Shown here one piece after another: positions 313-9,543 of a DNA stretch of 64,000 bases (positions within the stretch are counted from its first letter, which is position 1; the number at the start of each line of letters is the position of its first letter). A program made the position numbers and the translations under genes. Below the pieces are notes generated by a model, which made no database searches, was not told where the DNA came from, and worked only from the letters and a program-made list of their open reading frames with translations. The stretch lies in NCBI RefSeq assembly GCF_020991365.1, contig NZ_JAJLRA010000004.1, forward strand, positions 248,001 to 312,000. The letters run 5' to 3'. This DNA is from Streptacidiphilus sp. ASG 303. GTDB taxonomy: Bacteria; Actinomycetota; Actinomycetes; Streptomycetales; Streptomycetaceae.

Positions 313-506
313 TGGTCCGGGCTGCGGCCCGGTCCGCGACCGGGTTCGGCCGGACGGGTGGCGGGGGCCCGGAGGGGGTTTGGCGGGGCGATGTCACACC
401 TACGGGCTAAATGAACCGTTCGTGCTGGAACTTTGTCGATTTGTTGCGGAACGCTGGTCCCGGCGTCGCAGCCCGCACATCCGACTCCAGCCTCCCGGAG
501 GACACC

Positions 507-830
507 ATGGCTCGTTTCCGGACCGCCCGCCCGACCGGCCTCCTCGCGGCCGCGCCCCTGGCGGCGGCCCTGCTCCTCGCCGGGGCGGCCGCCGCCCAGG
601 CGGCCCCCGGCGTTCCGGCCGGCGACGGCTCCAGCGGCTCCGCCGTCTCCGCCACCGGCAGCGGGAACGTCTTCGGCCGGGTCGACGGCAACACGGACTG
701 GGCGCAGCAGACCGCCACCGGCTCCGGCGCCTCCAACCAGGACAACACCCTGGGGGTGAGGGGCAACTCCGGCCAGCTCTACTCCACGCAGAACAACCTG
801 AACATCCACTACGCGCAGCCCGCCGGCTGA
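507..830 (+). CDS. Small secreted protein, unknown function
   Basis: A 107-residue protein starting at ATG 507, which sits 5 bp after a good GGAGG (497-501). The N-terminus has a classic signal peptide: RFRTARP, a hydrophobic Leu/Ala core, then AAAAQAAP with an AxA cleavage site near residue 30. The mature part is about 75 residues, rich in Gly, Ser, Asn and Thr, with no Cys. It has repeated SGSGN/TGSGASNQDN-type stretches and ends in an aromatic, Asn-rich tail. The composition resembles small surface-active or cell-wall associated Streptomyces proteins, but it lacks the chaplin Cys pair and I do not recognise the family. It stands alone, followed by a strong hairpin at 875-905. Confidence 0.75.
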   Translation: MARFRTARPTGLLAAAPLAAALLLAGAAAAQAAPGVPAGDGSSGSAVSATGSGNVFGRVDGNTDWAQQTATGSGASNQDNTLGVRGNSGQLYSTQNNLNIHYAQPAG

Positions 831-3280: not shown

Positions 3281-4936
<1,656 letters not shown>

Positions 4937-4941
4937 CCCGC

Positions 4942-4974
4942 CGGGCGGGCCGGGGCGCCGCCCCGGCCCGCCCG
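4942..4974. terminator. Terminator between convergent genes
   Basis: A perfect 15-bp G/C stem with a 3-nt loop lies 6 bp after the acyl-CoA synthetase stop and 42 bp before the stop of the convergent PAS/kinase-like gene. Confidence 0.75.
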
Positions 4975-5015
4975 CGCGTGCCCGTTCCGGGGCCGCGCCC
5001 GTGCCCGTTCCGGGG

Positions 5016-8000
5016 TCAGTGGACCTCGCCGGCCGGGGACCCGATCTTGCCCAGCAGGTCGACGATCCGGCCCTGGACGTCCGGCGTGGTGGAGCGCTCC
5101 GCCAGGAACAGCACCGTCTCGCCGGTCCGCAGCCGCGGGAGCTCCTGCGGGTCCATGTCCACCGAGGTGTAGACGACCAGCGGCGTCCGGTACAGCCGGT
5201 CGTTGGACCGCAGCCAGTCCACGATCCCGACCCGGCGCCGCCGCACCAGCAGCAGGTCCATCACCACCAGGTTGGGCTGCACGCTGCTCGCCCGGGACAC
5301 CGCGTCGCTCTCCGACGCCGCGTGCTCCACGTGCATGCCGCGCCGCTCCAGTCCGGAGGAGAGGGCCGTGGCGATGTCCGGGTCCGCCTCCACGAGCAGC
5401 ACCCGCGGCGCGTGGCTCTCGCTGTCGCGCGGCGACAGCGCCCGCAGCAGCACCGCCGGGTCCGCGCCGTACGCGGCCTCCCGGGTGGCCTGCCCCAGAC
5501 CCGCCGTCACCAGCACCGGCACCTGCGCGTTGACGGCGGCGGTGCGCAGCGACTGCAGGGCGGTGCGGGTGATCGGACCGGTCAGCGGGTCGACGAAGAG
5601 CGCCGCCGGGCGGGCCCCGGCCTGCGCGTCCACCTCCTCCCGGGAGCGGACGATCACCGGGCGGTAGCCGCGGTCCTTGAGCGCCTGCTTGGTGGACGGC
5701 TCCGGCTCCGGCCACACCAGCAGCCGGCGCGGGCCGTCGTCCGGCGACGGCGCGGCGCCCGGGGCCTGGGCCGGGTCGTCCGGCCCGGTCCCGACGGTGC
5801 CGGGGGCACCGTGCGCACCCGGGGCGCCGTGCGCACCGGCGCCGTCCGGCGAGGGCAGTCCGGCGCCGTCCGTGTCGTCGGTCCCGGTGAGCGGCGGCAC
5901 CGCGATGGGCTGCGGCGGGGCGGGCGCGGCCGCCGGGGCCGCCGCCAGCGCCAGGGGGCCGTCGGCGGGCCGGTCCGCGGCGCGGGGCGCCAGTTCCCGT
6001 ACGGGGCCGGCCGCGACGCCGTCGGTCCGGATCGCGGTCACCGGCAGCACCGCCGGACCGGCCGCGCCCGGGGCGAACGGCCCCGGGGGGAAGGGCGCCG
6101 GCAGGAAGCCGGAGCCGGTGACGAAGGGATCCCCGGGCGCCGGTCGGGCGGGCTCCAGCGCCGCCGGGCCGCCGACGGGCTGCGCGGGGGCGGGTGGGAG
6201 CGCCGGCTGGGGGAGGGGCGCCTGCGGCGCGGCGGGCGCCCCCTGGTCCGGTGCGGCCGGGCCGGCCTGCTCCCCGGGCCGGGCGTCGTCGCCCGGGGGC
6301 ACCGCCAGCCGCCGGCGGCGGCCGGTGGGCGGGGGCGCGGAGGCCTGCGCCGGTACGGCCGGGGCGGCGGGCAGGGCGTTCTCCAGGCCGGGGTAGAGGG
6401 GGGCCGCGGGCAGGGGGAGCCCGTGCGGCGGGGTGGCCTGCGCCGGGAGGCCGTGGGGGCCGCCGTGCGGTGCGGCGCCGCCGTGCTCGGGGCCGTACGG
6501 TGCGCCGCCGTCCGCCGCGCCCGCGGGCCCGCCGCCGGCCTGCGGCGGCGCGGACGCGGTGTCCTGGGGCGGGGTGCCGCCCCGGGGGTCGGCCGCAGGG
6601 GTCCGGGCGCCCCGCGAGGGGTCGCCCGGGTAGGACTCGGCGCCCTCGGCGGCCGGGAGCGCGCGCCTGCGCCGCCCGTCGCCGGACCGGTCCGGCCGGG
6701 GCCCGTCCTCGGCGGTCCGCTGCCGGGGCGGCCGGGGGCCGTCGTGCTCCTCCGGCTCCCCGGCGGGGGAGCCGGGGCCGAGGGCTATCGGCCCCCGGGA
6801 GGCCTGCGGGCCGCCCGGGCCGCCGGTCGGGCCGTCGCCCGGGCCGCGGTCCGCCGCCCGTGCGGCCTCCGCGCCCCGTCCGCCGTCCGCTGCGCCGTCT
6901 CGGGGACCGTCCTGCGGCCCGCGCGCCGCGGGGATGCCCTCGGGCAGCTCCGGCAGGACGGCGGTGTCCGTCTCCTTGGGCGCGTCGCGGCGCCCGGCCG
7001 CCCCGGCCCGCTCCGCCGCGGCCCGCGCGGCGGCCGGGTCCAGGGGCAGCTCCACGACGTACGTGGTGCCCTTGCCGTCCGGCAGCCGGTGCGGCTGCAG
7101 CACGCCGCCGTGCCGCTCCACCATGCCGCGGGCTATCGGCAGGTGCACCGGGCTCCCGCCGTCGCCGGGGCCGCGCACCTCGATCCGGGCCACGTCCCCG
7201 CGCTGCGCGGCCGCCACGACCACCACGGGCGCGTCGCCGCCCACCGGCGGCAGCGCCGGCGCGCCCCCGTAGGGGACGGCCGCGGCGCGCGCCGCGTCCT
7301 CGGCGGCGTCCAGCGACAGGGTGACCCCGCTGACGTCGGCGACCAGGTGGGCCAGGGCCTGGGCGAGGCGGGCGGAGTCCGCGACCACCTCCACGGGCGC
7401 CGCGTGCACCGAGATCCGCACCCGGTCGGCCCCCACGAGCTCCCCGGCCGCGTCCACGGACCGCTGCACGACCTTCTCCAGGCTCACCGGCCTGCGGTCC
7501 AGGGCGTCCTTGCCGGCCTCCGCGGCGGCCTCGAAGCGCTGGTACGACAGCACGCCGTCGACCAGCCGGGAGAAGCGGGCGCACTCGTCGGCGAGGCGCC
7601 GCAGCGTCCAGTTGGCCTCCGGCCACAGCTGGCCCGCCGGGTCGCCGGCCAGGCCGTCGATGCGGCGGCGCAGCTGGTCCAGCGAGCCGCGCAGCTCCTC
7701 CTCCAGCACCGCCGTCAGGTGGCGGCCGCGGGCGGCCAGCGCCAGCTCCCTCGTCCGGTCGGTGAAGGTCATCACGGCGCCGACGAGCTGCTCGCCGTCG
7801 CGCACGGGCGCGGTGGTGAGGTCCACGGTCACCGGCCGGCCGTCCTTGCGCCACAGCACGGTGCCGCGCACCCGGTGCTTGCGGCCGGAGGCCAGGGTGT
7901 CGTTCAGCGGGGACTCGTCGGCGGCCACCGGGGTGCCGTCCGCCCTGGAGTGCTGGACGAGCGGCTGCAGTTCGCGGCCGCCCAGCTCGCTCGCCCGGAA

Positions 8001-8609
8001 GCCGAGGATGTGGGCGGCGGCGGGGTTCACCAGGACCACGCGGCCGTCGAGGTCGACGCCGACGATGCCCTCGGCGGCGGCGCGCAGGATCATCTCGGTC
8101 TGCTTGTGCTGGCGCCGCAGCTCCGCCTCGACGCCGAGCCGGTCCGTCAGGTCGCGGACCATGATCAGCAGCAGCTCGCGGGCGCCGCCGTCGGAGGTCC
8201 CGTACCCGGGGGCGGCCCAGCCGGAGGAGCCGCCGCGGAACGGGTCGTAGGGGACGAGGGGGGAGAGGGAGTACTGCGAGCCCTCGTCCTCGAAGTCGTT
8301 GGAGGAGACCTCGACCTGGAGGCTGGTGCCGTCGGTGCGGTGCGCGGTCATCCGGACGGGGCGGTCCAGCCCCTGCGGGCCGCCCTGGGAGGGGCGCATG
8401 GATCCGGGGATGCGGCTGGGGTCCAGGTCGGGGAGCAGCGCGAGCACGCCCATCCCGACCAGTGAGGTGCCCGGCGCCTGGAGGCTCTCCACGGCAGCGG
8501 TGTTCGCGTCCACGACCGTGCCGTTGCTGTTCACGAGGAGCAGCGCGTCCGGAAGGGCGTCGAGTATCGCTGCGAGGCGAGCAGCGCCTCGGGTCGGCCT
8601 GCTGCTCAC
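5016..8609 (-). CDS. PAS-kinase-like-receiver hybrid, apparently catalytically degenerate
   Basis: A 1197-residue regulator. GTG 8609 is chosen because AGAGGAGGA lies 9 bp upstream and the resulting N-terminus (SSRPTRGAARLAAILDALPDA) opens directly into a PAS fold. In order: PAS 1 (about 10-160), PAS 2 (about 175-290, TEMILRAAAEGIVGVDLDGR), a HisKA-like helical pair (about 305-370), an HATPase-like domain (about 400-545), a 350-400 residue Pro/Ala/Gly-rich disordered linker, a receiver-like domain without the usual acidic pocket, and a C-terminal receiver (VLLVEADPD, PNLVVMDLLL). The H-box reads EEELRGSL, with Glu where the phospho-accepting His is expected. The N-box reads HLVADV and the G2 box SPVHLPI, so neither looks functional. 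I infer a signalling scaffold or pseudokinase. Conserved in streptomycetes as far as I recall; partner unknown. Confidence 0.85.
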   Translation of the reverse strand: MSSRPTRGAARLAAILDALPDALLLVNSNGTVVDANTAAVESLQAPGTSLVGMGVLALLPDLDPSRIPGSMRPSQGGPQGLDRPVRMTAHRTDGTSLQVEVSSNDFEDEGSQYSLSPLVPYDPFRGGSSGWAAPGYGTSDGGARELLLIMVRDLTDRLGVEAELRRQHKQTEMILRAAAEGIVGVDLDGRVVLVNPAAAHILGFRASELGGRELQPLVQHSRADGTPVAADESPLNDTLASGRKHRVRGTVLWRKDGRPVTVDLTTAPVRDGEQLVGAVMTFTDRTRELALAARGRHLTAVLEEELRGSLDQLRRRIDGLAGDPAGQLWPEANWTLRRLADECARFSRLVDGVLSYQRFEAAAEAGKDALDRRPVSLEKVVQRSVDAAGELVGADRVRISVHAAPVEVVADSARLAQALAHLVADVSGVTLSLDAAEDAARAAAVPYGGAPALPPVGGDAPVVVVAAAQRGDVARIEVRGPGDGGSPVHLPIARGMVERHGGVLQPHRLPDGKGTTYVVELPLDPAAARAAAERAGAAGRRDAPKETDTAVLPELPEGIPAARGPQDGPRDGAADGGRGAEAARAADRGPGDGPTGGPGGPQASRGPIALGPGSPAGEPEEHDGPRPPRQRTAEDGPRPDRSGDGRRRRALPAAEGAESYPGDPSRGARTPAADPRGGTPPQDTASAPPQAGGGPAGAADGGAPYGPEHGGAAPHGGPHGLPAQATPPHGLPLPAAPLYPGLENALPAAPAVPAQASAPPPTGRRRRLAVPPGDDARPGEQAGPAAPDQGAPAAPQAPLPQPALPPAPAQPVGGPAALEPARPAPGDPFVTGSGFLPAPFPPGPFAPGAAGPAVLPVTAIRTDGVAAGPVRELAPRAADRPADGPLALAAAPAAAPAPPQPIAVPPLTGTDDTDGAGLPSPDGAGAHGAPGAHGAPGTVGTGPDDPAQAPGAAPSPDDGPRRLLVWPEPEPSTKQALKDRGYRPVIVRSREEVDAQAGARPAALFVDPLTGPITRTALQSLRTAAVNAQVPVLVTAGLGQATREAAYGADPAVLLRALSPRDSESHAPRVLLVEADPDIATALSSGLERRGMHVEHAASESDAVSRASSVQPNLVVMDLLLVRRRRVGIVDWLRSNDRLYRTPLVVYTSVDMDPQELPRLRTGETVLFLAERSTTPDVQGRIVDLLGKIGSPAGEVH

Positions 8610-8828
8610 GTCGAGGGGTCCTCCTCTGGCTGAACTCGTGCTGTGCCGCGGTGTCCCTTCCACCGCTCCCCCGCTCCCCCGGGCTGTGCCACCCAGCACT
8701 ATCGCATTGTTTTTGCGGTTCCGACGACCCGCCTAGTAACGTTGGCGGCGGTTGGCCGCGGCCGGGTAGGCTGTGGCACCATCCAGGCACGTGGTGCGCG
8801 TCGCTCGTCGTGACGCGGACCCGCGCAG

Positions 8829-8919
8829 GGAGGCTTCGCCTAGTCTGGTCTATGGCGCCGCACTGCTAATGCGGTTTGGGCCTTAAAGCCCATCCGGGGT
8901 TCAAATCCCCGAGCCTCCG
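8829..8919 (+). tRNA. tRNA-Ser(GCT)
   Basis: A 91-nt class II tRNA. The acceptor stem is GGAGGCT/AGCCTCC with discriminator G. It has a long variable arm, a GCT anticodon in CTGCTAA, and a T-arm with GGTTCAAATCC. CCA is not encoded. A terminator follows. Confidence 0.97.
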
Positions 8920-8930
8920 CACTCCGGGAC

Positions 8931-9131: not shown

Positions 9132-9204
9132 GCGCTCGTAGCTCAACGGATAGAGCATTTGACTACGGATCAAAAGGTTGCAGGTTCGAATCCTGCCGAG
9201 CGCA
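9132..9204 (+). tRNA. tRNA-Arg(ACG), copy 1
   Basis: A 73-nt tRNA with acceptor GCGCTCG/CGAGCGC, discriminator A, and anticodon loop CTACGGA giving ACG, the precursor of ICG that TadA deaminates. The tadA gene lies 17 kb away in this window. CCA is not encoded. Confidence 0.97.
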
Positions 9205-9210
9205 CAGCAC

Positions 9211-9464: not shown

Positions 9465-9537
9465 GCGCTCGTAGCTCAACGGATAGAGCATTTGACTACG
9501 GATCAAAAGGTTGCAGGTTCGAATCCTGCCGAGCGCA
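9465..9537 (+). tRNA. tRNA-Arg(ACG), copy 2
   Basis: Identical to copy 1 in every base, with the same leader and terminator. Both copies should be expressed. Confidence 0.97.
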
Positions 9538-9543
9538 CAGCAC

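Follow-up and report, generated by a model that had tools for sequence, protein, structure and literature searches.

HisKA domains missing the phosphoacceptor histidine are rare, with 722 of 76,471 in a published count (PMC12632262), and DivL of Caulobacter has been presented as the main worked-out case. DivL combines PAS domains with a DHp-CA fold, has Tyr or Ala at the His position, still binds an ATP analogue weakly, and is described as sensing a phosphorylated response regulator while having neither kinase nor phosphatase activity (PMC4211667). RetS of Pseudomonas is described as inhibiting GacS by binding and as forming heterodimers with it (PMC12189002). Among receiver domains, the pseudo-receivers of ShkA and FrzS keep the fold without a full active site and act by binding, the ligand of the ShkA domain being cyclic di-GMP (c-di-GMP) (PMC12632262). 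Here we describe a gene in a 64,000-nucleotide stretch of Streptacidiphilus sp. ASG 303 (contig NZ_JAJLRA010000004.1, positions 248,001 to 312,000), the whole of which is referred to as the window. The gene lies on the minus strand of the window, from 8609 to 5016, and its product is probably a soluble pseudo-hybrid histidine kinase, that is, a non-catalytic sensor-scaffold whose output would be allosteric and not by phosphotransfer.

The family to which this protein belongs shares with DivL the PAS domains and a DHp-CA fold without phosphoacceptor His. In contrast to DivL, its N, G1, F, lid and G2 motifs are also gone, and a long linker and two pseudo-receivers follow the kinase half. The same DHp-CA fold is found in RetS by structure match; unlike what we propose for the family, RetS is also said to act on the GacS phosphate directly (PMC12189002). 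As in ShkA and FrzS, the predicted receiver folds lack a full active site, but here they form a tandem pair behind a dead kinase and usually keep the Asp without its partner residues. We read the family as DivL-like in its working but of a separate lineage, on the understanding that the tree described below holds no DivL row.

Domain organization of the window protein

The window protein, with 1197 residues encoded between a GTG start codon at 8609 and a TGA at 5018-5016, has the domain order PAS-PAS-DHp-CA-disordered linker-REC-REC. The coding sequence has a GC content at third codon positions (GC3) of 0.97, and G/A-rich ribosome-binding sites precede the orthologues inspected as well. An initial annotation, which had given the same coordinates without naming the strand and had called the gene long and intact with strong translation signals, agrees with these features, listed below together with those of the protein.

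5016-8609, minus strand: whole coding sequence, 1197 aa, GTG to TGA (open reading frame, GC3 0.97)
8620-8625, minus strand: Shine-Dalgarno-like AGGAGG, 10 nucleotides upstream of the GTG (similar sites precede inspected orthologues)
8151-8588, minus strand: PAS1, residues 8-153, including a low-confidence loop (Pfam PAS, two stretches, and model)
7758-8093, minus strand: PAS2, residues 173-284 (Pfam PAS, 76 bits for the whole protein; best stretch 173-284)
7518-7754, minus strand: degenerate DHp helical hairpin, residues 286-364 (modelled as a pair of long helices; matches HK853 and DivL)
7698-7700, minus strand: Glu304 in place of the phosphoacceptor His (no His in any of the 79 non-redundant rows)
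7611-7643, minus strand: DPAGQLWPEAN, residues 323-333, turn of the DHp hairpin (alignment)
7035-7493, minus strand: degenerate CA (ATPase-like) domain, residues 373-525 (HATPase_c below cut-off; fold match)
7335-7337, minus strand: Asp425 in place of the Mg2+-binding N-box Asn (65 of 79 rows have Asp, none has Asn)
7104-7175, minus strand: residues 479-502, where Arg479 replaces the G1 Asp and the F-box, ATP lid and G2 box are absent
5739-6989, minus strand: Ala/Pro/Gly-rich linker, residues 541-957, presumed disordered (composition, length in relatives; highest dN/dS)
6654-6677, minus strand: linker motif GRRRRALP, residues 645-652 (RRRR recurs among linkers)
6381-6395, minus strand: linker motif YPGLE, residues 739-743 (42 of 60 distinct linkers)
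6303-6326, minus strand: linker motif TGRRRRLA, residues 762-769
5430-5732, minus strand: pseudo-receiver 1 (REC1), residues 960-1060; Asp1007 kept, acidic (DD) pair and switch Thr lost (low-confidence model)
5040-5405, minus strand: pseudo-receiver 2 (REC2), residues 1069-1190, with Asp1118 and Thr1148 but without the second D of the DD pair; Glu1171 at the Lys position

Two further very long open frames overlap the gene, one at 5001-8465 on the plus strand and one at 4573-8790 on the minus strand in another frame; we read them as an effect of the high GC content and not as genes.

Pfam PAS matched two stretches of the window protein well over the cut-off. Structure prediction had been suggested as a check in the initial annotation. 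The AlphaFold model of residues 2-548 shows the two PAS domains, a DHp pair of long helices and a CA domain resembling an ATPase (mean predicted local distance difference test score, pLDDT, 77.4), and that of residues 958-1192 shows two receiver-like units (pLDDT 66.0). The N-terminal model aligns with HK853 (Z 16.8, 203 residues, 4.8 Å), DivL (Z 16.1, 201 residues, 4.4 Å) and RetS (Z 14.7, 183 residues, 3.6 Å), the last of which carries tandem receivers. By family profile the best PDB chain is DivL, at 97.5 bits. A heme-binding PAS was considered and set aside: PAS1 matches the FixL PAS domain with 44 bits by profile, and no His motif of the FixL type was seen in the window PAS1.

Loss of the kinase residues

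Residue counts for the family are based on 79 non-redundant N-terminal rows, obtained from 81 by merging rows contained within others, and on 90 non-redundant C-terminal rows, a number that is the same either way. The 79 include L089, a 396-aa frame of genome G003, which was excluded from alignments A1-A5 and from the tree. Judged from these rows, the family is a kinase whose two-component catalytic apparatus has been lost. The motif EEELRGSL occupies residues 303-310 of the window protein, with Glu304 aligned to the phosphoacceptor His, and no His occurs at this position in any of the 79 rows, where Ser (30), Thr (12), Gln (9), Asp (8), Gly (7), Glu (6), Ala (3), Asn (2), Arg (1) and Lys (1) are found instead; all 22 active relatives in the tree have His. 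The Glu-for-His replacement reported for the single gene therefore holds family-wide in the sense that the His is gone. As a separate matter, a role of Glu304 as a conserved phosphomimetic was considered and ruled out, Glu being found in just those 6 rows.

The alterations of the N-box and G2 box noted in the initial annotation are likewise seen across the family. At the N-box Asn position there are 65 Asp, 6 Glu, 4 Ala, 1 Thr, 1 Ile and 2 gaps, with no Asn, and the G1 Asp is replaced by Arg in 75 of the 79 rows, as by Arg479 in the window protein, and kept in one. The F-box, lid and G2 box are missing in the window protein, in which 24 residues separate G1 from the HGG motif, compared to 48 in the five active relatives measured. 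The same 24-residue distance is found in 65 of the 67 rows having the pattern (70 tried, duplicates included). In four more distant members it amounts to 39 to 45 residues, the motifs being absent yet much of the length kept, which suggests that decay of the motifs preceded the deletion of the lid.

The usual phosphatase motif, E-x-x-T after the H-box His, is mostly gone as well, since the Thr at +4 is present in only 4 of the 79 family rows versus 22 of 22 active rows. The window protein has no HisKA match, and its HATPase_c score of 15.7 bits lies below the cut-off of 26.4. Among 24 family rows, 10 match HisKA and 22 match HATPase_c (E up to 0.1), so the kinase fold is still recognizable. 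Thus the window protein has none of the marks of an active HisKA kinase (H-box His; N-box Asn, G1 Asp, G2 glycines and lid; scores over the Pfam cut-offs), and it shows the DHp-CA fold without catalytic residues by which DivL is classed as a pseudo-histidine kinase. The DPAGQLWPEAN turn of the DHp hairpin is invariant across 45 close rows (alignment A3) and is not so in distant members.

The receiver domains

In REC1 of the window protein the DD pair is replaced by Pro967-Glu968 and the switch Thr is absent, while the phosphorylation-site Asp1007 is present. In REC2 the pair reads Glu1074-Ala1075, Asp1118 is present and the Lys is lost. Both domains would therefore be pseudo-receivers in the sense that one or more of the DD pair, D, T and K are missing. 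The initial annotation had described one of the two receivers as devoid of an acidic pocket; the loss of the acidic pair stands, but it extends to both receivers, and both keep the phosphorylation-site Asp. Across the 90 rows, the first DD position of REC1 is Pro in 89 and its switch Thr is Ala in 89, whereas its Lys position is basic in 84 (Arg 53, Lys 31). In REC2, all 90 rows share a Glu at the first DD position and Thr1148, and 81 have Glu in place of the Lys. It should be mentioned that the Lys assignments of REC1 and REC2 both fall in low-confidence parts of the model.

The putative receiver fold of REC1 is recognized mainly from the alternating strands and helices of the model, with its pLDDT of 66. 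REC2 scores 28.5 bits against Pfam Response_reg in the whole protein (cut-off 30.2) and 32.2 bits as a separate piece, and in the same C-terminal model it matches DivK with a Z of 8.8 over 94 aligned residues (3.5 Å).

Distribution and selection

All 21 genomes of a first set match the N-terminal query, and 49 named loci were found, mostly of Kitasatospora and Streptacidiphilus. In a sample of the order, each of the 119 genomes has one tandem-receiver match at E <= 1e-20, partial in two genomes (G318 and G320), and 102 of the matches lie in frames of more than 1000 aa. In a class sample of 296 genomes, all 28 of the host's family match with E < 1e-111, and members of families f10 and f15 match more weakly. 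The N-terminal profile matches one genome of f10, five of f15 and 39 of the 40 listed of the host's family; the remaining one, G325, matches by the C-terminal part in a frame of 541 aa. A sweep of 149 genomes of the phylum gave tandem-receiver matches in 4, all of the host's family and including the window's own, at a cut-off of 1e-18 that divergent members would escape. No close paralogue was seen in the window's own genome, in which a shorter query gave weak matches only (best E 5.5e-11). Genome G003 contains two short PAS-type relatives, L089 (396-aa frame) and L013 (360-aa frame), beside a full-length copy elsewhere.

Compared with two relatives, the ratio of nonsynonymous to synonymous substitution rates (dN/dS) ranges from 0.08 to 0.39 among the domains and is about 0.5 for the linker, and all domains are under purifying selection in both comparisons. 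The catalytic parts are lost, yet every sampled genome of the order carries the gene, and the protein is thus probably a sensing and docking platform and not an enzyme. Sensing by the PAS domains is plausible because both are conserved.

Origin of the family

The tree was built from the PAS2-DHp-CA region with the H-box and N-box columns removed, using 27 rows that span the family and 22 active kinases. It is a quick tree without bootstraps, in which forks near the outgroup are weak and five active rows are long-branched. One branch parts the 27 inactive rows from the 22 active ones (Shimodaira-Hasegawa-like approximate likelihood ratio test, 99), which fits a single ancient loss, and the nearest relatives found in the tree are actinobacterial kinases. 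Kept outside the tree were the distant kinases L151 and L165 (minus strand), both of which also carry the His, in an SHDL motif, and five weaker N-terminal profile matches (121-129 bits). The best active match by the N-terminal profile is L152, at 285 bits, a GAF-PAS-PAS kinase (GAF by look) with canonical boxes.

Three active hybrid kinases of Actinomycetes, L129-L131, score 100.9, 92.4 and 88.5 (partial) bits against the tandem-receiver profile. Among the matches listed they are the only non-family ones near 90-100 bits, the next being receivers at about 49 bits. They resemble the family in the order PAS-HisKA-HATPase-REC-REC. In contrast to the family, they have canonical H, N and G boxes, two Response_reg stretches and hydrophobic N-terminal stretches, and none of the three has the tRNA-Ser neighbor described below. 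The simplest reading would be that a hybrid kinase with tandem receivers lost catalysis once and that the lid was then deleted in the order, with losses of the REC2 Asp coming later.

Linker and coiled-coil insert

Linkers were extracted by pattern from 64 of 71 full rows, yielding 60 distinct ones in a set that leans to Kitasatospora relatives. They are Ala/Pro/Gly-rich and nearly all 309 to 844 residues long. RRRR occurs in 50 of the 60, compared to a mean of 0.58 and a maximum of 3 for shuffled linkers, and YPGLE occurs in 42; several distant members lack the linker motifs. The N-terminal profile match is split in two in 24 of the 39 matched genomes of the host's family, and all three such loci inspected, L132, L136 and L137, have a coiled-coil-like insert between PAS2 and DHp that would lengthen the signaling helix. 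The insert is long, with repeats such as EEHAAELTALRRRHAAELAEL, and is absent from the window protein. The linker motifs and the coil insert suit a scaffold better than an enzyme.

Genomic neighborhood and the S. coelicolor orthologue by synteny

Two neighbors of the gene recur among its relatives.

8829-8920, plus strand: tRNA-Ser(GCT), conserved neighbor
3281-4936, plus strand: acyl-CoA ligase (AMP-binding), convergent neighbor conserved across families (Pfam AMP-binding on the L136 homologue)

In 34 of 35 distinct loci, those of f10 and f15 among them, the tRNA-Ser(GCT) is no more than about 1.6 kb away from the gene; the one miss, L135, ends at a contig end, and L132 repeats L080, the two being counted once. 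It is kept in all six loci checked of the seven that lack the REC2 Asp (L057 was outside the check). In L088 (5232-5322) the tRNA-Ser(GCT) is oriented as the pseudo-kinase gene, opposite to the other checked loci. Tandem tRNA-Arg(ACG) genes are found in the window at 9132-9205 and 9465-9538; several relatives have one and others two. Of 21 orthologue loci, 16 have the acyl-CoA ligase neighbor, which is convergent with the gene in 15 and shares its strand in L075; in a second comparison, which takes in f15, 7 of 12 loci have it. On the ligase side are small proteins with signal-peptide-like starts and Asn/Gly/Gln-rich tails (window 411-830; L136 1-435; L137 10775-11146), which presumably resemble surface proteins of the chaplin or rodlin type.

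L136 is a Streptomyces-type locus, the genus being assigned from synteny and the dominant genus code in the family sample, and its gene order is sigma factor, acyl-CoA ligase, major facilitator superfamily (MFS) exporter, TetR, family gene, SSI-type inhibitor, tRNA-Ser and tRNA-Arg. In the published accounts of S. coelicolor, SCO4006 is placed in lipid degradation (PMC8062868), SCO4007 is the MFS exporter MdrA under control of the TetR protein SCO4008 (PMC3924187), and SCO4010 is an SSI protein (PMC5853079). The ligase-MFS-TetR-gene-SSI order of L136 parallels SCO4006-4010, so that by synteny SCO4009 would be the S. coelicolor orthologue. A 2022 review lists SCO4009 as an orphan hybrid histidine kinase with a REC domain that holds a phosphorylatable Asp and calls its signaling unclear; the entry gives the histidine kinase label without mention of the loss of catalytic residues (PMC9739842). 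This review is the only one among the open-licence PubMed Central papers to name SCO4009, and no paper describing the family as inactive was found among them.

Proposed mechanism and alternative explanations

The initial annotation had proposed a non-catalytic role for a single odd gene. With the His, the Asn, the G1 Asp and the lid lost family-wide, the inactive rows forming one clade and the gene kept in 119 of 119 genomes, such a role is now strongly supported, and the reading is strengthened by its extension to an order-wide family. We propose that the two PAS domains would sense an internal signal and that the DHp pair with the lid-less CA domain may serve as a dimerizing conformational switch. 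The flexible linker with its basic motifs and the tandem pseudo-receivers could then offer docking surfaces for active sensor kinases, response regulators or other proteins, the output being given by binding or heterodimerization, allosterically and without phosphotransfer. In a bolder form, which is speculative and rather unlikely at present, the order would possess a core regulator that is wholly non-enzymatic, a phosphate-free allosteric hub made up of sensor, dead kinase and two dead receivers, its pseudo-receivers and basic linker motifs assembling other sensor kinases or binding a second messenger.

Several observations weigh against the proposed sensor-scaffold. The inactivity of the family has been read from sequence, and other chemistries exist. 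The N-box position is acidic (Asp or Glu) in 71 of 79 rows, so the CA domain may still bind metal weakly. In the receivers, Asp1007 is present in all 90 rows, which would be odd if Asp chemistry were irrelevant, Asp1118 is present in 83, and REC2 has Glu also at the second DD position, giving a Glu-Glu pair, in 30. Confidence in the C-terminal model is low (pLDDT 66). Seventeen of the 119 order matches lie in frames shorter than 1000 aa, many in draft assemblies, and the frame in G350, a two-contig assembly, has 493 aa and may be broken.

The retained Asp residues lend themselves to another explanation, already raised in the initial annotation, in which the kinase half is inactive and the signal passes through the receivers, with Asp1118 or Asp1007 phosphorylated by a different kinase. 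The Glu-Glu pairs, the basic REC1 residue in 84 rows, the invariant Thr1148 and the phosphorylatable Asp ascribed to SCO4009 (PMC9739842) are consistent with it. Against it stand the Pro in the DD pair and the Ala for the switch Thr in REC1, each in 89 of 90 rows, and the Glu for Lys in REC2, in 81. The REC2 Asp itself is replaced in seven rows, by Asn in L023, L057 (Kitasatospora), L082 (f2), L127 and L128 (f15) and by Gly in L125 and L126 (f15), and its loss in several members weakens this explanation. The invariant REC1 Asp still speaks in its favor, and we consider it unlikely as a whole.

It also seems improbable that the protein is a platform gated by a small-molecule ligand, for example a nucleotide second messenger, bound by the pseudo-receivers or by the altered CA pocket. 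The motif DPLTGPITR surrounds the invariant REC1 Asp, an RRRR run follows the REC2 Asp in many members, and ShkA provides a precedent (PMC12632262). Chains of PleD and ShkA are among the Foldseek matches of the C-terminal model, although the fold matches of a model with pLDDT 66 tell little, and weak matches to VpsR were obtained for 9 of 30 rows (best E 0.0065). The RRRR run, on the other hand, is absent in the f15 relatives.

An active atypical kinase that autophosphorylates elsewhere is very improbable. The best candidate is His297, one heptad (7 residues) upstream of Glu304, which is found in 49 of the 79 rows, and several His residues occur in the coil insert of some Streptomyces members. 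In the other 30 rows position 297 is Q, E, R, A, S, D or T, and the G1 Asp, the N-box Asn and the ATP lid are gone in nearly all rows. A conserved His elsewhere in the dimerization helix, for which the alignment was inspected as the initial annotation had advised, was ruled out on the same counts. Decay of a gene without function can practically be dismissed: the lost catalytic motifs and the short frame in G350 would fit it, but a match in 119 of 119 genomes, 102 of them in frames over 1000 aa, purifying selection and the kept ribosome-binding sites do not.

Implications

Taken as a non-catalytic sensor-scaffold, the family would be a second, deeply conserved one in which kinase, phosphatase and receiver residues have been lost together, though it is printed as a kinase. 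With a match in all sampled genomes of an order known for antibiotic production, it would alter the way in which the gene is tested. Searches for a cognate response regulator of SCO4009 may accordingly be misdirected, and binding partners and ligands are worth seeking too. The active sister kinases make the stepwise loss of catalysis traceable.

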